Shown in pieces: positions 24,734 through 37,135 of a stretch of 64,000 nt of DNA. Source of the stretch: Nitrospirota bacterium (lineage in GTDB: Bacteria; Nitrospirota; Thermodesulfovibrionia; SZUA-242); contig JACRHH010000015.1 in assembly GCA_016212095.1 (NCBI GenBank), positions 62,001 to 126,000 on the forward strand, read 5' to 3'. Made by a program: the position numbers and the translations under genes. The notes below the pieces were generated by a model, which saw only the letters and a program-made list of their open reading frames with translations, did not search any database and had not been told where the DNA came from. Numbering within the stretch: the stretch's first letter is position 1; every line of letters begins with the position of its first letter.

Positions 24734-25701
24734 TTCGCGCCTCCCGGTTCTTGCGAGCCTTGGCGGGCAACGCAAACGTCTTGCGAGCCTTGGCGAGCAA
24801 CGCAAACGTCTTGCGAGCCTTGGCGAGCAACGCGATTAATCAGTGGAAAGTTCATGTTGGTGCGAAGCTCCACATACCCCTCGGCGCAGAGTTTGGCCAG
24901 ATGCCGCACACGCGTAATGTATCCGGTGCGCTCGGTCACGCTCAAGGCGCCGCGGGCGTCGAGCATGTTAAACGAATGCGAGCATTTCAGCACGCAGTCG
25001 TAAGCCGGAAGAACAAGATTGGCTGCGGCAAGGCGCTTGGCCTCCTTTTCATGCATGTCGAACAGACGATATTGCATATCGACATCGGCCTCGTCGAAGT
25101 TGAACGCCGAGAACTGAACCTCGCCCACATGGTGAACATCGCCGTATGAAACGTTGTTTGTCCACTTGAGGTCGTAAACGCTGTTTACGCCCTGTATATA
25201 CATCGCCAGCCGTTCGAGGCCGTATGTTATTTCCACCGATACCGGACTGAGATCGATGCCGCCCACCTGCTGGAAATAGGTGAACTGGGTGATCTCCATG
25301 CCGTTTAGCCAGACTTCCCAGCCAAGCCCCCAAGCGCCCAGCGTGGGCGATTCCCAGTCGTCCTCAACAAAACGGATGTCGTGCTGAAGCGGATCGATGC
25401 CTATGGCGCGAAGGCTTTCCAGATACAGCTCCTGGCTGTCTATCGGAGAAGGCTTGAGAATGACCTGAAACTGGTAGTAGTGCTGAAGGCGGTTCGGGTT
25501 TTCGCCGTAGCGCCCGTCCGTCGGTCTGCGGGAAGGCTCAACATAGGCGGCCCTCCACGGCTCAGGGCCGAGCACCCGGAAAAACGTTGCCGGATTGAAT
25601 GTTCCGGCTCCAACTTCTATATCGTATGGCTGCTGTATCACGCAGCCCTTGGCTGCCCAGAAAGATTGAAGCTTGAGGATCAGATCCTGAAATAGTAGCA
25701 T
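24730..25701 (-). CDS. glyQ: glycyl-tRNA synthetase alpha subunit with repeat tail
   Basis: Alpha (catalytic) chain. Starts [20 protein letters not shown] at 25701 and has the signature [31 protein letters not shown]. The core ends normally at NMNFPLINR; the protein then carries three units of [10 protein letters not shown] (last ends QEPGGAK) that are encoded by a 30-bp tandem repeat. 323 residues, about 30 more than usual. Overlaps glyS by 4 bp. Confidence 0.97.
24750..24833. repeat. 30-bp tandem repeat, nearly three copies
   Basis: Units start at 24750, 24780 and 24810, differ by one base (GGCGGGCAA versus GGCGAGCAA), and the third is cut at 24 bp. Because 30 is a multiple of three it adds ten residues per unit to GlyQ and also covers the region just upstream of the glyS start. 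Confidence 0.95.
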
Positions 25702-27592: not shown

Positions 27593-27794
27593 GGGTAGAC
27601 AGGGTTCCCGGTCGGGAACGGATTCTGTTGTCCGCAATATTATGGATTTGGCGTGTCTGTAAATACAGCTTTGCAGTCTAAGCTACATATTTGTTAATTC
27701 CTTTAGCTGTCCGGTTCGTTTCCGGCGTTATTCCGGCGTTTAATCCCAGGCATGAATATTGCGTCTATTCCTGTCAACAAGAAGGAGTCGTGCA

Positions 27795-28562
27795 ATGATG
27801 GAAAAATTTATTCTTGCGGCAGCTATAACGATCTGCTTCAGCATCTTGACGGGCGTTTCCCAGGCTGAAACTCCGGCTATCACCGTGTCGGCGGCAATAA
27901 GCCTGAAAAATGCCTTCGAGGAAATCGGCAAGCTGTATGAGTCCGGAAGCAATGTGAAGGTCGTGCTGAATTTCGGGGCGTCGGGTGATCTTGCAAGGCA
28001 GATAGCTGGTGGCGCGCCTGCCGATGTCTTTGCTTCCGCTGCGCATAAAGACATGGACATGCTCGACGGCAACGGATTTCTCTCCCCCGGCACGCGCGTG
28101 AACTTCGCAGGCAACCCGGTTGTTCTCATCGTGCCGCTTCATGGGCCGCTATTGAAGGGATTTGACGATCTGAATACGCCCGCAGTAAAGAAAATAGCGA
28201 CCGGAAACCCCAAAACAGTGCCTGCAGGCAGGTATGCTGCCGAGGTGCTGGACTATTACAAACTCTCCGGCGCAATCAAGGATAAACTTGTTTTCACCGA
28301 AAACGTCCGGCAGGCTCTCGACTACGTGGCGAGTGGAGAAGTGGACGCAGGCATTGTTTATGCCACGGACGCCGCGGTCAGGGCCAGAGATGTCAAGCTG
28401 GTTTTCACTGCTCCGGAAGGAAGCCATAAGCCGGTTGTTTATCAGGTTGCCGTGGTTAAATCTACCGGAAATGAGGCTTCGGCAAAGGGTTTTATCTCGC
28501 TGGTTCTGTCGCCTGCCGGCCAGTCGATACTCAAAAAATACGGGTTTCAGACCGCCAGATAG
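27795..28562 (+). CDS. modA: molybdate ABC transporter substrate-binding protein
   Basis: Periplasmic molybdate/tungstate binder, 255 residues. Signal peptide 1-23 (ending SQAE), then TVSAAISLKNAFEEIGKLYE, VVLNFGASGDLARQIAGGAPADVFASA, and VNFAGNPVVLIVP, the ModA signature. ATG at 27795 follows AAGGAG; the upstream extension is not needed. modB begins 8 bp later. Confidence 0.95.
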   Translation: MMEKFILAAAITICFSILTGVSQAETPAITVSAAISLKNAFEEIGKLYESGSNVKVVLNFGASGDLARQIAGGAPADVFASAAHKDMDMLDGNGFLSPGTRVNFAGNPVVLIVPLHGPLLKGFDDLNTPAVKKIATGNPKTVPAGRYAAEVLDYYKLSGAIKDKLVFTENVRQALDYVASGEVDAGIVYATDAAVRARDVKLVFTAPEGSHKPVVYQVAVVKSTGNEASAKGFISLVLSPAGQSILKKYGFQTAR

Positions 28563-28570
28563 GCCGTTGC

Positions 28571-29236
28571 ATGGACGAATCGGTTCTTTTTTCGATACGC
28601 CTGTCATTGCAGGTTGCCGCTGTCTCGACAGCGCTTATTGTGCTGACCGGATTGCCGCTTGCGTATTTTCTTGCGCGAAGGGACTTCAGCGGCAGGGAAC
28701 TTCTCGATGTGTTACTTACGATCCCGCTGGTGCTTCCCCCCACAGTAACCGGTTATTATCTGATTATCCTCTTTGGACGCAATGGTTTTATCGGGAAATA
28801 TCTCTATTCATTGACCGGATGGAGCATCATGTTCACCTGGTATGCGGCAGTTCTTGCTTCCTACGTCGTGGCGCTGCCGTTGATGATAAAGACGGCAAGG
28901 GCTGCCATCGAATCCGTTGACGGAAGCCTCATCGATGCGTCATACACGCTCGGTCACTCCGAGCCCGACACCGCGCTGAAAGTCATACTGCCGCTTGCAA
29001 AGCGCGGCATTGTTGCCGGAATGGTCTTGTCCTTTGCCCGCGCCATGGGAGAGTTCGGAGCAACGCTCATGCTCGCCGGGAACCTGCCCGGCAAGACAAG
29101 CACGATGCCACTGGCGATTTACAGTCTTGCGGGAAGCGGGGAATGGTCGCAGGCTCATTTCATGGTCTTGCTGCTGACCATGATGTCCGGAATATTCCTG
29201 TATGTCGCAAACAGATACTCGCGGAGGATCATCTGA
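28571..29236 (+). CDS. modB: molybdate ABC transporter permease
   Basis: 221 residues, five to six membrane segments, with the LLTIPLVLPPTVTGYYLIILFGRNGFIG segment and the EAA loop (DASYTLGHSEPDTALKVILPLAKRGIVAGMVLSFARAMGEFGATLMLAGN) that contacts the ATPase. Stop overlaps the modC start by 1 nt. Confidence 0.96.
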   Translation: MDESVLFSIRLSLQVAAVSTALIVLTGLPLAYFLARRDFSGRELLDVLLTIPLVLPPTVTGYYLIILFGRNGFIGKYLYSLTGWSIMFTWYAAVLASYVVALPLMIKTARAAIESVDGSLIDASYTLGHSEPDTALKVILPLAKRGIVAGMVLSFARAMGEFGATLMLAGNLPGKTSTMPLAIYSLAGSGEWSQAHFMVLLLTMMSGIFLYVANRYSRRII

Positions 29237-29940
29237 TGGGCCTTCAGGTTAGCCTCCAAAAGAAGCTAAACGGCTTCAACCTTGATATCGGCTGGGAAAT
29301 ACGTAATGAGCTGGCCGTGCTCTTCGGTTTTTCAGGCGCAGGCAAGTCCATGACGCTTCAGTTGATTGCCGGTCTTATGAGGCCCGACAACGGGAGGGTG
29401 AGCCTTGATGACACGATATACTATGACAGCGTGACAAACACCGATTTCCCGGCGAATAAACGTCCATTTGGCTATGTTTTTCAAAACCTTGCGCTCTTTC
29501 CGCACATGACTGTTATCGGAAATATTCTTTATGGCGCCCCATCGGCACAGAAGCATGAAAAAATGAATCATGCCCTGGAGATGATACGCGCATTCAGGCT
29601 CGCGGGGCTTGAAGGCAGATACCCTCATGAGATATCCGGAGGCCAGAAGCAGCGGGTTGCGGTTGCAAGGGCGCTGATGCGGCGGCCACGGGCGCTATTG
29701 CTTGATGAACCGTTTTCGGCGCTTGACCGGCCTCTCCGCATCGAAATGCGAGGTTTTCTGCGGGAAGTCAGGGACGAATTCAATATTCCCGTGATACTGG
29801 TAACGCATGATTTCGAAGAGGCATCCGCGATAGCGGATAAAGTAATCATTTATGAGCATGGCCGGATAGCTCAAACCGGCACCCCGGAAGAGATCCGAAG
29901 CGCCGAAACGCCGTCCGGGGCCTGTGCCGTCAGGGTATAA
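29236..29940 (+). CDS. modC: molybdate ABC transporter ATP-binding protein (no TOBE domain)
   Basis: 234 residues: Walker A GFSGAGKS, Q-loop VFQNLALFPHM, signature ISGGQKQRVAVARAL, Walker B RALLLDEPFSALD, H-loop LVTHDFEEA. Ends shortly after the ABC domain, whereas many ModC proteins of about 350 residues add a C-terminal TOBE molybdate-sensing domain. The ATG at 29236 is chosen; the open frame upstream is inside modB. Confidence 0.95.
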   Translation: MGLQVSLQKKLNGFNLDIGWEIRNELAVLFGFSGAGKSMTLQLIAGLMRPDNGRVSLDDTIYYDSVTNTDFPANKRPFGYVFQNLALFPHMTVIGNILYGAPSAQKHEKMNHALEMIRAFRLAGLEGRYPHEISGGQKQRVAVARALMRRPRALLLDEPFSALDRPLRIEMRGFLREVRDEFNIPVILVTHDFEEASAIADKVIIYEHGRIAQTGTPEEIRSAETPSGACAVRV

Positions 29941-30175: not shown

Positions 30176-30952
30176 ATGGCCAAGAAGGAAAAAATACTTG
30201 TTCTCGACGACGATCCGGCGGTAACGCTAAGTTGTCAGCGAATCCTCGGCGTTGAGGGATACAGCATAACGACCGTTGCCCGCGGCGAGGACGCCATCAA
30301 GCGGGTGTCAAGCGAGGAGTTCGACCTGCTCATCTCCGACGTCAGGCTGCCGGACATCAGCGGCATAACGGTCTTGAAGGAGACGAAACTCATCCAGCCG
30401 AAGATGGACGTTGCGATAATAACAGGCTATCCCACGCTTGAGGACGCGCGTGAATCGGTGCGGCTTGGCGCGTTCGAGTTTCTGGAGAAACCGTTCACGC
30501 CGGAGTTCATGCTGAACATGGCCCGAAGGGTGTTCGACGAGCGCGGCTGGATACTTCGCAAGGCGTTCATCGACGAGTTCAGAAACTCCATAGTCGATCT
30601 GCGCGATCAGGACAATCCGGTGCTTTTCTACAAGGAAGGCACATGGGCGCGGCCCTTGAAGGGCGGCATGTGGGAGGTCGGATGCGACCTTCGTTACCTG
30701 CTTCTTGAGGGGCAGATGGTGTATGTGGAACTCACCGACAAGCTTCCCGCGCTGGTTGCGGGCGAAAGCTTCGGCCAGGTTGTGCTTGGCGACGGCAGGA
30801 GCCATGAGCTTCTTGCCCCGATGACCGGCAGGGTGCGCGAGCTCAACATGGGCGCAAACAACGCCGTCAGCGAGCTGGTGCGCGACAATCTGGCGCAGGG
30901 CTGGCTGCTGTGGCTTGCCAGAATCGCGCCGATCGAGGGCGCGCGGCTGTAA
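30176..30952 (+). CDS. response regulator: receiver fused to GcvH-like domain
   Basis: 258 residues. Receiver (1-120) with acidic pocket LDDDP, phosphoacceptor Asp55 (LLISDVRLPD) and Lys105 (EKPFTP). The second half (about 145-252) matches the glycine-cleavage H-protein/lipoyl fold: GTWARPLKGGMWEVGCDLRYLLL, MVYVELTDKLPALVAGESFGQVVL, LLAPMTGRVRELN, GWLLWLARIAP. The lipoyl-lysine position (VVLGDGRSHELLAP) has no lysine, so it is probably not lipoylated. GGAGGG ribosome site. First gene of the oxidoreductase operon; 34 bp before the REC-NuoE gene. Confidence 0.85.
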   Translation: MAKKEKILVLDDDPAVTLSCQRILGVEGYSITTVARGEDAIKRVSSEEFDLLISDVRLPDISGITVLKETKLIQPKMDVAIITGYPTLEDARESVRLGAFEFLEKPFTPEFMLNMARRVFDERGWILRKAFIDEFRNSIVDLRDQDNPVLFYKEGTWARPLKGGMWEVGCDLRYLLLEGQMVYVELTDKLPALVAGESFGQVVLGDGRSHELLAPMTGRVRELNMGANNAVSELVRDNLAQGWLLWLARIAPIEGARL

Positions 30953-30986
30953 CTGTGTTTCTCAATTAATAATCCCGGAGAACTGT

Positions 30987-31892
30987 ATGACAGAAAACGG
31001 CTTGAAGATACTTGTCGTGGACGATGAAAGCATCGTTATAAGAAGCTGCGAGATCGTGCTGAAGGGCGCGGGCTATCATATGGAAGGCGCGCTTGGCGGG
31101 CGCGAGGCGATCCTGAAGATGGAAAAAGAGCGCTACGACCTCGTTTTCACCGATCTGAAAATGCCTGAGGTTGACGGCATCACGCTCATCCGCTGGCTCA
31201 GGAACTCGCGGCCAGACACCGGCATCGTGATACTCACCGGCTATCCGTCGCAGGACACGATAAAGGAGGCTCTTGGGCTTGGGATAATCGATTACGTGCC
31301 GAAGCCGTTCACGCCTGCGGTGCTTCTCGATGTGACAAGGCGCGCGGTGCAGTGGCTTGAAACCCGGAAGCCGGGAGCCTTTGCAATATCCGCCGAGATG
31401 TCGTCGCCTGCCGAGCCTGTCCGCGACGATTTTCCGCCCGCGATGGCAGCCGAGCTTGACAAGGTCATCGCGCATTACAAGCATATCCCCGGAAGCCTTA
31501 TACCGGTCTTGCAGCGGGCGCAGGAGATGATAGGCTGGCTTCCCGTCGCCGCTCTCAAGCGCGTGTCGAAGGGCATGAATATTCCAGCCGCCGAGGTTCA
31601 CAGCGTTGTGAGCTTCTACTCGTTTTTCACCATGAAACCGCGCGGCGACCACAACATCAGGGTGTGTCTCGGAACCGCCTGCTACGTGAAACGGGCCGAG
31701 GAGATACTGCGCAATCTGAAGGAGGGGCTTGGGATCGGAGTGGGCGAGGTGACGCCGGACAGGAAATTCTCGCTTGAGGAAGTCCGCTGTCTGGGCGCGT
31801 GCGGTCTTGCGCCTGTTGTGGTGGTTGACCACGACACGTTCGGCGGAATCGATCCGAAGAACTCGATGGAAATCGTTGAGAAGTACCGTTAA
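30987..31892 (+). CDS. receiver domain fused to NuoE/HndA-type [2Fe-2S] subunit
   Basis: 301 residues. Receiver (1-125) with ILVVDDES, phosphoacceptor Asp56 (VFTDLKMP) and Lys106 (PKPFTP). Linker about 126-155, then a 24-kDa NuoE-type thioredoxin-like domain: IPVLQRAQEMIGWLP, VHSVVSFYSFF, and the [2Fe-2S] ligands Cys227, Cys232 (CLGTAC) and Cys268, Cys272 (CLGAC). NuoE normally starts directly with its helical domain. ATG at 30987 follows CCCGGAGAACTGT. Followed by HndB-like and NuoF-like subunits. Confidence 0.9.
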   Translation: MTENGLKILVVDDESIVIRSCEIVLKGAGYHMEGALGGREAILKMEKERYDLVFTDLKMPEVDGITLIRWLRNSRPDTGIVILTGYPSQDTIKEALGLGIIDYVPKPFTPAVLLDVTRRAVQWLETRKPGAFAISAEMSSPAEPVRDDFPPAMAAELDKVIAHYKHIPGSLIPVLQRAQEMIGWLPVAALKRVSKGMNIPAAEVHSVVSFYSFFTMKPRGDHNIRVCLGTACYVKRAEEILRNLKEGLGIGVGEVTPDRKFSLEEVRCLGACGLAPVVVVDHDTFGGIDPKNSMEIVEKYR

Positions 31893-31907
31893 GGGGGCAA
31901 GCAGGAA

Positions 31908-32291
31908 ATGGCAAGACTGACGATAGACGATCTGAAAAGAATAAAGGAAAAGCACAAGGAAGAATTCTCGCTTCGCGAGGGAGGATACAGGGCGAAGGTG
32001 ACTGTGCATATGGGAACGTGCGGCATAGCCGCCGGGGCGCGTGAAATAATGACTGCGCTTATGGCGGAGCTTCGCGAAGCGGGGGCCGAGGGCGTGATAG
32101 TTGCCACGTCGGGCTGCGCCGGATTGTGCAGCAAGGAGCCGCTTGCCACTGTCGAGATGCACGGGCAGCCGCCGGTGAAGTATGGCGAGCTTACCGAGGC
32201 GAAGATCAAGACCATCGTGAAAGAGCATGTGATCGGCGGCGCGCCGGTCGAGAAGCTGGCGCTTGTTACCGGCAGCGAAACGGCGTATTAG
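31908..32291 (+). CDS. HndB-like (2Fe-2S) thioredoxin-fold ferredoxin subunit
   Basis: 127 residues. N-terminal helix MARLTIDDLKRIKEKHKEE, typical of HndB-type proteins of NAD(P)-reducing hydrogenases, then a thioredoxin-like [2Fe-2S] domain with VHMGTCGIAAGAREI and ATSGCAGLCSKEPLATVEMHGQPPVKYGEL. Only one Cys (Cys38) is in the first cluster segment (usually C-x4-C in relatives), so the cluster may be incomplete or use another ligand. Sits between NuoE- and NuoF-type genes. Confidence 0.85.
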   Translation: MARLTIDDLKRIKEKHKEEFSLREGGYRAKVTVHMGTCGIAAGAREIMTALMAELREAGAEGVIVATSGCAGLCSKEPLATVEMHGQPPVKYGELTEAKIKTIVKEHVIGGAPVEKLALVTGSETAY

Positions 32292-32305: not shown

Positions 32306-32358
32306 AAATCCCCCCTACCCCCCTTTGGCAAAGGGGGGTGGCATAGCCGGGGGGATTT
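32306..32358. repeat. GC-rich palindromic intergenic repeat, copy 1
   Basis: Complex palindrome with arms AAATCCCCCC...GGGGGGATTT and inner CCCCCCTTTG/CAAAGGGGGG and GGC/GCC. Shares the block GGGGGGTGGC-N2-AGCCGGGGGGA with 47537-47587. Lies inside the operon between the HndB-like and NuoF-like genes, which leaves 112 bp non-coding there. Confidence 0.85.
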
Positions 32359-32403: not shown

Positions 32404-34317
32404 ATGGAACAGTATCGCGCGCACTTGATGATATGCGCCGGAACAGGTTGTGTTGCCAGCGGCTCGCTGAAGGTGCGGGACGCGCTCGATGTCGAAATCA
32501 GAAAACGCGGCCTTGAAAAAGAGGTCAAGGTGGTGCTCACCGGCTGCAACGGTTTCTGCGCCAAAGGGCCGATCATCGCGGTTCACCCCGGCGAAATCTT
32601 CTATCAGGTTGTTAAGCCGGAAGACGTGCCGCTTCTTGTCGAGGAGCATTTCATAAAGGGCAGACCGGTCGAAAAGCTGATGTACAAGATGCCCGCCGAC
32701 AAAAAGGCCATTCCGGTGATGAACGAAATCCCGTTCTTCAAGCATCAGGTGCTTCGCGTGCTTCGGAACAAGGGCATGATCGACCCGGACAGCATCGAGG
32801 AATACATAGCGCGCGACGGCTATCAGGCCGCCGCGAAGGCGCTTCTTGAGATGTCGCAGCAGGAGATTATCGACACGGTAAAGGGCTCCGGAATCAGGGG
32901 CAGGGGCGGCGCGGGCTTCCCCACCGGCCTCAAGTGGGAGTTCACCTCCAAGTCGGCGGCGGATCAGAAATACCTGCTCTGTAACGGCGACGAGGGCGAT
33001 CCGGGCGCGTTCATGGACAGATCGGTGATGGAGGCCGACCCGCATTCGGTGATCGAGGGCATGGTGATCGGCTCGAAGGCGATCGGCGCTACAAAGGGCT
33101 ACATATACGTGCGCGCCGAATATCCGCTTGCCGTCGAGCGATTGAAAAAGGCCATAAAAGACGCGAACGAGGCCGGGCTTCTCGGCAGGAACATCCTCGA
33201 TTCCGGCTACGATTTCGAGCTTGACGTTTACCTTGGCGCGGGCGCTTTCGTCTGCGGCGAGGAGACGGCGCTGATGCGCTCCATCGAGGGCCAGCGCGGA
33301 ATGCCGAGGCCGAGGCCTCCGTTTCCGGCGCACAAGGGGCTTTGGGACAAGCCCACGGTGCTGAACAACGTGGAAACCTTCGCGCAGATTGCGCCGATAA
33401 TTCTAAACGGAGCCGACTGGTACAAGAGCCTCGGAACCGAGAAATCCACCGGCACGAAGGTCTTCGCGCTCACCGGCGCGATAACAAACGTGGGCCTTGT
33501 TGAGGTGCCGATGGGCATTCCGCTTCGCACCATCATCTACGACATCGGCGGCGGAATATCCAAAAAGGGCAAGAAATTCAAGGCGGTGCAGATGGGCGGC
33601 CCGTCGGGCGGCTGCATACCCGAACACCTGCTCGATACGCCGGTTGACTTCGATTCGATCAATGCCACAGGCGCGATCATGGGATCGGGCGGCATGGTGG
33701 TGATGGACGAGGACAACTGCATGGTCAGCCTCGCCAAGTTTTTTCTCGGTTTCACTGCGGATGAATCGTGCGGCAAATGCCCGCCATGCCGCGTGGGTAC
33801 ACGCGTGATGCTCGACACACTCATCGACATAACCGAGGGGCGCGGCAAGCCGGGCGATGTTGAAACCCTGCTCGACCTCTGCGAGGACATAAAGGCCACC
33901 TCGCTCTGCGGCCTTGGACAGACAGCGCCGAATCCGGTGCTGACAACGATCAAGTATTTCCGCGAGGAATACGAGTCGCACATCCACGACAAATGGTGCA
34001 AGACAGGCGTATGCCGCGATCTTGCAAGCTTCGAGATCGATGCGGCGATATGCACCGGATGCGGCGTCTGCGCGCGGGCATGTCCGCAGAAGGCGATAAC
34101 CGGCGAGAAGAAACAGCCGCACAAGATCATTCAGGAGCTATGCATTCAATGCCGCACATGCTACGACCGATGCAAGTTCGGCTCGATAAAAATAGGCCCC
34201 GGACTGAAGTTCGCGAAAGCCGGAGCGACGAATGCGGCGGTTGCCGATGCAACTGCGGTTGGTGGGCCCGCTGCGGTTGCCGATGCAACCGCAGTTGGTA
34301 ATAGAGGTGAGAAATAA
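32404..34317 (+). CDS. NuoF/HndC-type NADH-binding flavo-iron-sulfur subunit
   Basis: 637 residues, diaphorase subunit. N-terminal thioredoxin-like [2Fe-2S] domain (Cys11, Cys16, Cys48, Cys52), then the NuoF core: GSGIRGRGGAGFPTGLKWEF (FMN/NAD glycine-rich loop), YLLCNGDEGDPGAFMDR, AGAFVCGEETALMRSIEGQRG, the [4Fe-4S] site SCGKCPPCRVGTR...SLCGLGQTAPNPV, and a C-terminal 2x[4Fe-4S] ferredoxin (from about residue 550, CTGCGVCARACP and CIQCRTCYDRC). The tail AVADATAVGGPAAVADATAVG comes from a 36-bp DNA repeat. Stop overlaps the next ATG by 1 nt. Confidence 0.95.
   Translation: MEQYRAHLMICAGTGCVASGSLKVRDALDVEIRKRGLEKEVKVVLTGCNGFCAKGPIIAVHPGEIFYQVVKPEDVPLLVEEHFIKGRPVEKLMYKMPADKKAIPVMNEIPFFKHQVLRVLRNKGMIDPDSIEEYIARDGYQAAAKALLEMSQQEIIDTVKGSGIRGRGGAGFPTGLKWEFTSKSAADQKYLLCNGDEGDPGAFMDRSVMEADPHSVIEGMVIGSKAIGATKGYIYVRAEYPLAVERLKKAIKDANEAGLLGRNILDSGYDFELDVYLGAGAFVCGEETALMRSIEGQRGMPRPRPPFPAHKGLWDKPTVLNNVETFAQIAPIILNGADWYKSLGTEKSTGTKVFALTGAITNVGLVEVPMGIPLRTIIYDIGGGISKKGKKFKAVQMGGPSGGCIPEHLLDTPVDFDSINATGAIMGSGGMVVMDEDNCMVSLAKFFLGFTADESCGKCPPCRVGTRVMLDTLIDITEGRGKPGDVETLLDLCEDIKATSLCGLGQTAPNPVLTTIKYFREEYESHIHDKWCKTGVCRDLASFEIDAAICTGCGVCARACPQKAITGEKKQPHKIIQELCIQCRTCYDRCKFGSIKIGPGLKFAKAGATNAAVADATAVGGPAAVADATAVGNRGEK
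34237..34298. repeat. 36-bp period direct repeat at the 3' end of the NuoF-like gene
   Basis: Two near-identical 26-bp copies at 34237-34262 and 34273-34298 (start GCGGTTGCCGATGCAAC), in frame, encoding AVADATAVG twice. Confidence 0.85.
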
Positions 34318-36770
34318 TGATTGAACTAACCATAAACGGAAAGCCTGTTCAGGCCGAGGATGGCGCGACCATCCTCAAGACCGCGAAGGCCAACGGAATA
34401 AAGATACCGAATCTTTGCTGGGACAAACGCCTGCGCCCTTACGGCGGATGCCGCCTCTGCGTGGTTGAGCTTGAAGGCCAGCCGCGCTTGTTCGCCGCCT
34501 GTTCAACTCCGGTGCAGCCCGGCATGAAGGTTCTTACAGACACGCCGAAGCTTAAAAAAGCCCGCCAGACGGTGCTTGAGCTGCTGCTTGTGCATCATCC
34601 GCTCGACTGTCCGGTCTGCGACAAGGCCGGCGAGTGCGACCTGCAAGACCTTGCCTACGAGTATGGCAAGCCCGAAGGCAGGTTCATCCGGTGGCGGAAA
34701 GACAAGCCCGCCGACGTGCGAGGCCCGCTTATCGAGCTTAACTCAAACCGCTGCATACTCTGCGGAAAATGCGTGCGCATCTGCGCCGAGCATCAGGGCC
34801 GTGGGGCGCTTGGGTTCATGGGACGCGGATTTCCGACGGTTGTCACCCCGGCCTTCGGCGAGATTCTGGAATGCGACTACTGCGGCCAGTGCGTTGACGC
34901 TTGCCCCACCGGCGCGCTTGTGGCCAAGCCGTACAAATACAAGGCGCGGGCGTGGTATCTGGACGAAAAGGATTCCATCTGCTCATACTGCGGCTGCGGC
35001 TGCACGCTCACGCTCGGCATTCGCGAGGGCAAGATCCTTCGCGCGCGCGGCGAGGAAGACAAGGGCGTATCCGACGGAAACCTCTGCGGCAGGGGCAGGT
35101 TCGGCTTCGATTACGTTCACGATCCGGCGCGACTGAAGACGCCGCTTGTGCGCAAAGACGGCGAGCTTGTCGAAACAACATGGGACGAGGCGATGAAATA
35201 CGCAGCCGACGCGCTTCGCGAGGTGATTTCCAGGGGCGGGGCGCAATCCGTGGGCGCAATCGGATCGCACCGCTGCACCATGGAAGACAACCACATGCTC
35301 AAGCGGTTCATGACCGTGCTCGGTTCGGGCAACCTCGACTATTCCGGCGCGTTCGGCTATGGCCGGGCTCAGAAGGCGTGGGAGTCGTGCTTCGGCGCCG
35401 CGCCGCATAAAATAGATTTAAAATCGCCGCTTGGCAAGCAGGCGATTCTTGTTGTGGATTCCGACATCACGGTCACGCATCCGGTGTTCGGCCTGAACAT
35501 CATGCAGGCCGGACGCGAGGGCGCGCATATCATTACGTCCGATTTCCGCGAAACAAAGCTTACGCGCCATTCGTCAACGTGGCTTCGCAACAGGCCGGGA
35601 ACCGGAATCGCCATGGTTAACGGCATCATGAAGGCGATCATCGACGGCGGAATGTTCGACAAGTCTGCCGCCGAAAAGATTGAGGGTTTTGCGGCGCTTG
35701 CCGCATCGCTCGAAAATTACACGCCGGAAAAGGTTTCGGCGATGACCGGCGTTCCGGCTGAAAACATTGCCGCCGCCGCGGCAACTTTTGCCAAGGTCGG
35801 TTCACGGCTGATAGTTATGTCGCTAGGAACATCCGACAATACAAAAAACGCCGACCTTGTTCGCGCTGTTGCGAATCTTGCCATTCTTCTTGGCGACGGC
35901 CCCGAATCCGTGCAGATTCCGGCTGAATATGCTAATACGCTGGGCGCTTGGAGCGCGGGCATAAGGCCGGGTGAAGGGGGCAAAAGCGCCTCTTCGATGC
36001 TTTACGAGCCGGGCTCGGTGAACGCGCTTATCGTGATGGGCGAGGATCCGGTGTCGTCATTCCCCGACGGGGGAGGGATTCTGCGCGCATTGAAATCGCT
36101 TGATCTTCTGATAGTAAGCGCTATCACCATGAACGAGACCGCGAAGATGGCTAACGTTGTGTTCCCGGCCACAAGCTGGGGCGAGAAGGACGGCACTTTC
36201 ATGAACGCCGAGGGCCGCGCTCAGCGGATGCTTCGGGTTTCGGAGCCCACCGGCATGAGCATGCCGGACTGGCAGATCATCCGCAACCTGTCGTGGGCCA
36301 TGGACAAGGAGACCGACATACGCTCGATCGAGGACATTCGCAAGGAAATGGCCGATGTTGCTGTTGCAACTGAAGCATCTGTTTGCCGCTTTGCGCCTGC
36401 CCGGCAGCCTGCAATTCCGGCTGACGGCAATCATGTCTTGCTTGCGGTTCGCGATGTGCTTCAGCATTCGGGCAGCATGTCAACACGGTCGGAGGCGCTC
36501 GATCTGGTGGTGCGCGAGGCTGTGCTGGAGATCGGAGAGGCCGACGCGGAGCGGCTTGGCATTGCCGACAACGCGCACGTGAAGGTTACAACCGTGTCGC
36601 AACCGCATTATTCTGTTTACCTCAAGGCACGGATCAGCGATGAGCTTGTAAACGGCGTGGTGACAACCTCGATGCATTTTCCTTCGGGGCGTGTGAACAC
36701 TCTTGTGGGCTTGGCGGCGGACGGCGGCGCGGCACCGTGCATGGTGCGCATTGAAGCCGCATCCGGCTGA
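34317..36770 (+). CDS. NuoG/FdhA-like molybdopterin-family iron-sulfur subunit
   Basis: 817 residues. N-terminal [2Fe-2S] ferredoxin (Cys34, Cys45, Cys48, Cys62), NuoG-type His/Cys cluster (His94, Cys98, Cys101, Cys107), two [4Fe-4S] sites (CILCGKCVRIC; CDYCGQCVDACP), the molybdopterin-oxidoreductase [4Fe-4S] motif (CSYCGCGC...GNLCGRGRFG), and the catalytic domain. The segment where formate dehydrogenases carry the Cys/Sec metal ligand reads SGAFGYGRAQKAWE, without Cys or Sec. A C-terminal molybdopterin dinucleotide-binding domain is present (from about 715). It is therefore NuoG-like or a changed Mo enzyme rather than a standard formate dehydrogenase. modABC lie 4.4 kb upstream. Confidence 0.88.
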   Translation: MIELTINGKPVQAEDGATILKTAKANGIKIPNLCWDKRLRPYGGCRLCVVELEGQPRLFAACSTPVQPGMKVLTDTPKLKKARQTVLELLLVHHPLDCPVCDKAGECDLQDLAYEYGKPEGRFIRWRKDKPADVRGPLIELNSNRCILCGKCVRICAEHQGRGALGFMGRGFPTVVTPAFGEILECDYCGQCVDACPTGALVAKPYKYKARAWYLDEKDSICSYCGCGCTLTLGIREGKILRARGEEDKGVSDGNLCGRGRFGFDYVHDPARLKTPLVRKDGELVETTWDEAMKYAADALREVISRGGAQSVGAIGSHRCTMEDNHMLKRFMTVLGSGNLDYSGAFGYGRAQKAWESCFGAAPHKIDLKSPLGKQAILVVDSDITVTHPVFGLNIMQAGREGAHIITSDFRETKLTRHSSTWLRNRPGTGIAMVNGIMKAIIDGGMFDKSAAEKIEGFAALAASLENYTPEKVSAMTGVPAENIAAAAATFAKVGSRLIVMSLGTSDNTKNADLVRAVANLAILLGDGPESVQIPAEYANTLGAWSAGIRPGEGGKSASSMLYEPGSVNALIVMGEDPVSSFPDGGGILRALKSLDLLIVSAITMNETAKMANVVFPATSWGEKDGTFMNAEGRAQRMLRVSEPTGMSMPDWQIIRNLSWAMDKETDIRSIEDIRKEMADVAVATEASVCRFAPARQPAIPADGNHVLLAVRDVLQHSGSMSTRSEALDLVVREAVLEIGEADAERLGIADNAHVKVTTVSQPHYSVYLKARISDELVNGVVTTSMHFPSGRVNTLVGLAADGGAAPCMVRIEAASG

Positions 36771-36781
36771 TACGACACAGT

Positions 36782-37135
36782 ATGAGGCTTGAGCAGATCT
36801 CCGAACTTGTTGATGCTGTAGTTATTACCGGGACGGAAGAACCTGATGTCCCGGTAGAGGTTGAGCACTGCTACATAGCCGACCTGATGAGCGATGTCCT
36901 GGCGTTCTGTCCGCCCGACGCGCTTCTTATAACCGGGCTGACCAACACGCAGGTTGTCCGCACCGCAGATGTTGCGGATATAAAGGCGGTTGTTTTTGTG
37001 CAGTCGAAAAAGCCGGATCACGAAACAGTGGCGCTCGCCCGCAAAAAACAGCTTCCGCTTCTTACGACATCGCTTCCCGGATTCGAGGTATGCGCCCGTT
37101 TGCACAAGGCCGGACTGGGAATGGCGGGCGGGTGA
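36782..37135 (+). CDS. DRTGG-domain protein
   Basis: 117 residues: VDAVVITGTEEPDVPVEVEHCYIADLMSDVLAF...LLITGLTNTQVVRTADVADIKAVVFVQSKKPDHETVALARKKQLPLLTTSLPGFEVCARLHKAGL. This pattern is that of stand-alone DRTGG proteins, often next to NuoE/F-type hydrogenase or oxidoreductase subunits in anaerobes. Role unknown, possibly nucleotide or phosphate sensing. 11 bp after the NuoG-like gene, so last gene of the operon. Confidence 0.75.
   Translation: MRLEQISELVDAVVITGTEEPDVPVEVEHCYIADLMSDVLAFCPPDALLITGLTNTQVVRTADVADIKAVVFVQSKKPDHETVALARKKQLPLLTTSLPGFEVCARLHKAGLGMAGG

Follow-up and report, generated by a model that had tools for sequence, protein, structure and literature searches.

Receiver domains are built into two consecutive genes of a conserved operon from a member of the Nitrospirota, one of the proteins continuing into a GcvH-like domain and the other into a NuoE electron-transfer subunit. 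We lean slightly towards the view that a dedicated kinase phosphorylates these receivers and that a bifurcation-family NADH oxidoreductase is thereby adjusted after translation, without transcription. The window, by which we mean the whole stretch of 64,000 nt that was analyzed, covers positions 62,001-126,000 of the forward strand of contig JACRHH010000015.1 (assembly GCA_016212095.1; Nitrospirota, Thermodesulfovibrionia, SZUA-242). The genes of the operon, in window coordinates, are:

30176..30952, + strand: REC-GcvH-like protein, 258 aa (Pfam, conservation, AF2)
30987..31892, + strand: REC-NuoE, 301 aa (Pfam, 103-sequence alignment, AF2, Foldseek)
31908..32291, + strand: HndB-like [2Fe-2S] thioredoxin-fold protein, 127 aa (Pfam E 2.8e-4, sub-threshold; NCBIfam 2Fe-2S ferredoxin; conserved position)
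32404..34317, + strand: NuoF-like protein of the HydB/BfuB type, 637 aa (PDB matches, cysteines, NADH/FMN motifs)
34317..36770, + strand: NuoG-like protein with a molybdopterin-oxidoreductase domain, 817 aa (Pfam; Fe-S cysteines; Gly347)
36782..37135, + strand: DRTGG-domain protein, 117 aa (Pfam 2e-7; module in relatives)

Successive genes are separated by 34, 15, 112, -1 and 11 nt, and the reading frames of REC-GcvH and REC-NuoE are open with good starts. An initial annotation of this DNA had placed a receiver and a metabolic domain in each of these two genes, and the Pfam domain search agrees. The HndB-, NuoF- and NuoG-like genes that it listed after REC-NuoE were confirmed by Pfam and their linkage is conserved in relatives; the operon additionally includes the DRTGG-domain gene, beyond the genes named there.

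Genes resembling modABC, for a molybdate transporter (window 27759-29940), immediately precede the operon and share its strand. The 112-nt gap between hndB and nuoF contains a near-perfect GC-rich palindrome, CCCCCCTTTGGCAAAGGGGGG (window 32318-32338), which occurs once in the window. At the glyQ/glyS junction (window 24749-24833), a 30-bp tandem repeat of 2.8 copies with 98% match adds repeated residues at the C-terminus of the glyQ reading frame.

The two receiver fusions

In REC-NuoE, Pfam assigned Response_reg to residues 8-116 (3.5e-26) and 2Fe-2S_thioredx to residues 158-301 (3.1e-48), and Foldseek matched 7t2r_C, 7p5h_C, 9bp5_C and CheY folds. The receiver carries D12/D13, D56, T84 and K106. 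Asp56 and Lys106, reported initially as intact, are retained in 100 and 101 of the 103 aligned sequences, respectively, and the [2Fe-2S] cysteines C227, C232, C268 and C272 are each present in 103/103. REC-GcvH has its Response_reg match at residues 7-115 (5.5e-24), with the D11/D12 pocket, D55, T83 and K105; here too the phospho-Asp and Lys named at the outset are in place, each conserved in 78/78 sequences. With the required acid pocket, phospho-Asp, T/S and Lys present, both receivers of the window are apparently working.

The C-terminal half of REC-GcvH matched GCV_H at residues 151-247 with 7.6e-4, slightly under the curated cut-off. Since 61 of the 62 family members match PF01597 (best 1.5e-9), we accept the GcvH assignment as real on profile evidence, though weak in the window protein alone. 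The GcvH/lipoyl fold proposed initially thus held as to the fold and failed as to the lipoyl lysine: no conserved Lys occurs at 200-211 in REC-GcvH and Gly207 is found in 77/78 sequences, on which grounds a lipoylated GcvH was rejected. Foldseek matches of this protein are dominated by receivers, with RssB and PorX among the fold matches.

The two halves of REC-NuoE are joined by a weakly conserved linker of about 30 residues (mostly 29-31), of which residues 131-145 are disordered in the AF2 model; the AF2 models are of single chains only, with pTM of 0.45-0.47 and an undefined REC orientation. Such a flexible tether would suit receivers that act independently of phosphorylation, as modules for docking or dimerisation that join REC-GcvH, REC-NuoE and other subunits. 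Moreover, the fusion persists in three genomes (G174, G199 and G201) whose degenerate REC-NuoE receivers have another residue in place of D56, which shows that the fold can persist where phosphorylation does not; REC-GcvH was not detected in G174 and G199 and lies elsewhere in the genome in G201. However, pure docking would not need the D, acid pocket, T and K that about 95-100% of the receiver sequences of both proteins retain, and a conserved kinase neighbour speaks against it as well. We regard constitutive docking as quite improbable.

Solitary REC-NuoE genes were found in G189 and G307. At L157:9633-10490 and L158:9523-10449, a solitary REC-NuoE with intact catalytic residues and cysteines adjoins a methyltransferase-like gene, and NuoF is missing from the vicinity. 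The second REC-NuoE of G058 (L152:7099-15306), beside NfnAB-like genes, has lost the C-terminal [2Fe-2S] domain, and REC-NuoE matches in G022, G038, G046 and G060 stop near the same residue as this truncated copy.

Distribution and gene neighbourhood

Among 396 sampled Nitrospirota genomes, the REC-NuoE fusion occurs in 112, all belonging to the class of the window (Thermodesulfovibrionia), and several of the assemblies are single contigs; an assembly error is therefore ruled out. The initial annotation had named such an error, or relatives in which the two parts are always separate genes, as what would undo the fusion; neither applies, and a chance fusion was rejected likewise. REC-GcvH was found in 95 genomes and both proteins in 93, a co-occurrence with an odds ratio of 690, not corrected for shared ancestry. 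The proposed association with REC-GcvH, NuoF and NuoG was borne out: 93 of the 112 REC-NuoE genomes have REC-GcvH, and in related loci REC-GcvH lies upstream in 67/76, NuoF comes next in 69/70 and NuoG is present in 58/60. For the 19 genomes with REC-NuoE and no detected REC-GcvH, contig edges may account for some. Some lineages of the class, such as family f10, are without the fusion. The best 80 loci of the contig scan were nearly all titled Nitrospirota or Thermodesulfovibrionia, the related contigs carry Nitrospirota titles, many of them Thermodesulfovibrionia, and no match over the full length turned up among plasmids or viral contigs.

A HAMP-HisKA-HATPase kinase together with a REC or NtrC gene lies upstream of the operon in 38 of the 54 related loci having at least 7 kb of upstream sequence. 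The candidate kinase, initially taken to be unlinked, is thus linked in most relatives. In the sister genus G001 (L178), a single contig holds complex I genes, kinase, REC, REC-GcvH, REC-NuoE, HndB and NuoF. In the genome of the window the cluster is split: the orthologous kinase-REC pair is on another contig, beside complex I genes (G000:C18:24.1-25.5 kb), and the PHP/HATPase module genes are at C30. Identity is 61% for this kinase ortholog and drops to 39% for the next kinase of the genome. Linkage marks it as the probable cognate histidine kinase.

The usual order in relatives is kinase, REC (sometimes NtrC), often an accessory module (DRTGG, RsbW-like HATPase, DRTGG, PHP, HATPase), REC-GcvH, REC-NuoE, HndB, NuoF and NuoG; in other loci the module follows NuoG. 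The DRTGG gene of the window is the first gene of this module, which is complete in relatives. A complex I operon often adjoins the cluster. Nine loci contain NfnA/NfnB-like genes, several of these loci having them inserted between REC-GcvH and REC-NuoE, and some loci include NfnAB and tandem NuoFG copies.

The presence of one kinase and several related receivers in a single cluster could also mean that REC-NuoE and REC-GcvH are phosphate sinks, draining phosphoryl groups from the kinase and so shaping REC/NtrC signalling, with the metabolic domains only localising them. The fusion of a sink to a subunit of a catalytic complex, in 112 genomes and with all Fe-S cysteines kept, would then be left unexplained, and we give this reading very little credence.

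REC-GcvH is not solely an enzyme part, because in G004 it stands with REC and the kinase away from enzyme genes and any REC-NuoE, and in G262 and G201 enzyme genes are not nearby. At L205:7425-10266, a kinase-REC-REC-GcvH unit adjoins apparent hrcA/grpE/dnaK/dnaJ genes, without enzyme genes.

Descent of the receivers

In the receiver tree, REC-GcvH formed one clade (100/99) and REC-NuoE another (99/100), the two being sisters (96/71) placed among the REC/NtrC receivers of the cluster. The receivers of the cluster fell apart from most others of the genome, in a tree built on few columns and with several long-branched controls. An 'SC' pair in helix 1, on the kinase-docking surface, is found in 40/41 REC, 20/22 NtrC, 72/76 REC-GcvH and 59/98 REC-NuoE sequences, and in 0/20 control receivers of the genome. 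Judged from their sequences, the receivers of the cluster (REC, NtrC, REC-GcvH and REC-NuoE) are shown here to share common descent.

Un-fused NuoE homologs with 54-58% identity, from another Nitrospirota class, share the accessory module and have no receiver, and the same holds for the un-fused NuoE homolog of an [FeFe]-hydrogenase operon in the class of the window. Because these relatives share the module without the receiver, the comparison suggests that the receiver was joined to NuoE within this class.

Enzyme family

The best PDB match of NuoF was 7t2r_B (1e-249); HydB of 7q4v scored 1e-242 and complex I NuoF about 1e-115. Its closest solved relatives are the B subunits of bifurcating NiFe and FeFe hydrogenases. 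The protein comprises an N-terminal Trx-like [2Fe-2S] domain, an FMN/NADH domain and an extra C-terminal 2x[4Fe-4S] part; the cluster cysteines are conserved, including those of the N3-type and C-terminal 2x[4Fe-4S] clusters, and the NADH/FMN motifs are intact. These motifs uphold the NAD-linked Fe-S oxidoreductase of the initial annotation, and the NuoF matches make its class more specific. Two features of HydABC-type enzymes (Bfu family) are present, namely a HydB-type NuoF and a NuoE/HydC subunit with four [2Fe-2S] cysteines, and by homology a more fitting name is NADH oxidoreductase of the HydB/BfuB type, a member of the bifurcation family. Family membership suggests bifurcating activity with NADH, ferredoxin and a third couple.

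The NuoG-like subunit has all Fe-S cysteines, and Gly347 occupies the Cys/Sec position of formate dehydrogenases, with Gly in 73/73 sequences. Arsenite oxidase holds Mo without a protein ligand, so Gly at this site is no proof of an inactive subunit. An NAD-dependent formate dehydrogenase was rejected on the missing catalytic Cys/Sec, and an [FeFe] hydrogenase on the third subunit, which is NuoG-like with a molybdopterin domain and no H-cluster domain. Respiratory complex I was rejected since the operon is without membrane or Q-module genes and NuoF is far nearer to HydB; complex I NuoEFG exist separately from the REC-NuoE operon.

Two other gene sets of the genome contain related subunits. 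One (L120:6778-11762; G000:C17, 16.8-21.8 kb) is an NAD-linked formate dehydrogenase that has separate NuoE and NuoF genes to itself and an in-frame TGA at NNVDHCARY*H, likely a selenocysteine enzyme. In the other (L119:3482-10801; G000:C9, 139.5-146.8 kb), a NuoE-NuoF-NuoG-like set adjoins the gene of an anaerobic CO dehydrogenase catalytic subunit.

The main rival explanation reverses the flow of the signal: NuoE, NuoF and NuoG would be a redox sensor, in which the state of the NuoE [2Fe-2S] cluster alters receiver phosphorylation or kinase binding, and the kinase, the stand-alone REC and, in genomes that have it, NtrC would be informed of the NADH/ferredoxin balance, as in regulatory hydrogenases. 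Neither REC protein has a DNA-binding output, as the initial annotation stated, which does not extend to the pathway, for in some relatives the cluster includes the gene of an NtrC-type regulator. That regulator and the stand-alone REC sharing the cluster, the missing formate dehydrogenase ligand in NuoG and the ability of the kinase-REC-REC-GcvH unit to stand without nearby enzyme genes would all fit such redox feedback. Many clusters, however, are without NtrC, the complete HydB cofactor set and NADH motifs resemble those of a working enzyme, receivers usually take signals rather than give them, and NfnAB and tandem NuoFG copies accompany some loci, as expected for a metabolic enzyme. We consider this reversal unlikely.

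Proposed mechanism

In the preferred reading, in which phosphorylation adjusts the enzyme, the HAMP-HisKA-HATPase sensor kinase would phosphorylate the related receivers of stand-alone REC, REC-GcvH and REC-NuoE; we infer both the phosphotransfer and a single kinase for all of them. REC-NuoE would take the NuoE/HydC place in a HydB-type NADH oxidoreductase made of NuoE, HndB, NuoF and NuoG. Phosphorylation of its tethered receiver may alter how the complex assembles, its oligomeric state or the way it gates electrons, an effect of either sign, and REC-GcvH would be a lipoate-free GcvH-like adaptor, probably acting together with REC-NuoE. As a result, NADH/ferredoxin/NADPH traffic might be tuned without transcription, the substrates beyond NADH being presumed. 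The narrower proposal, that kinase phosphorylation of the receiver built into NuoE/HydC, with the receiver-GcvH adaptor, gates the electron flow of a bifurcating NADH oxidoreductase in Thermodesulfovibrionia, we put somewhat short of an even chance.

We counted in favour of the preferred reading the conserved receiver residues, co-occurrence, the conserved gene order, kinase linkage, the kinase ortholog in the genome of the window, the receiver tree, the SC pair, the HydB-like NuoF with its intact NADH/FMN motifs, the NfnAB-type genes in 9 loci and the un-fused NuoE homologs that have the accessory module and no receiver. Counted against it were REC-GcvH apart from enzyme genes, solitary REC-NuoE, the 19 REC-NuoE genomes in which REC-GcvH was not detected, the D56 losses, the undefined REC orientation in the single-chain models and an SC pair in just 59/98 REC-NuoE.

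Comparison with known systems

The initial annotation knew of no described system of this kind, and our search of open-access full text likewise found no published description of a REC-NuoE/REC-GcvH system. In the passages searched, the 'Candidatus Sulfobium' paper mentions NfnAB and complex I, and not the REC-NuoE operon (PMC5812927). Each half is of a known kind; provisionally, their joining is new among the Nitrospirota genomes and open-access literature compared.

Little is settled about how bifurcating enzymes are regulated, and the roles known for two-component systems lie mainly in gene control or chemotaxis. Signalling may here act on the enzyme itself, not on its genes. A receiver covalently within the enzyme, class-wide in a large group of uncultured environmental Nitrospirota, makes it possible to test whether redox metabolism is under direct phospho-control, for which the C18 kinase and its linked orthologs are the candidate kinases.

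The enzyme resembles HydABC, HydABCSL, NfnABC and StnABC (BfuBC core; 7p5h, 7q4v, 7t2r, 9bp5, 8oh5) in its NuoF architecture, NuoE/HydC partner and NuoG-like third subunit. Unlike bifurcating HydABC-type enzymes, it bears an N-terminal receiver on NuoE and is accompanied by separate REC-GcvH and HndB-like proteins; an H-cluster domain is missing from its third subunit, in which Gly occupies the site of the formate dehydrogenase Cys/Sec. The HydABC operon of [FeFe]-hydrogenase group A6 (L144, same class) shares the DRTGG/HATPase/PHP accessory module and relatives of HndB, NuoF and NuoE, but its NuoE is un-fused, HydA replaces NuoG and REC-GcvH is not beside it. The C-terminal half of REC-GcvH shares the fold of the glycine cleavage H protein, here receiver-fused and devoid of the lipoyl lysine. 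CheB, RssB and PorX are response regulators with outputs that do not bind DNA, and in them, too, an N-terminal phosphorylatable receiver controls a non-transcriptional C-terminal domain; the output here differs, being either a subunit that serves electron transfer within a larger enzyme complex or a GcvH fold devoid of lipoate.
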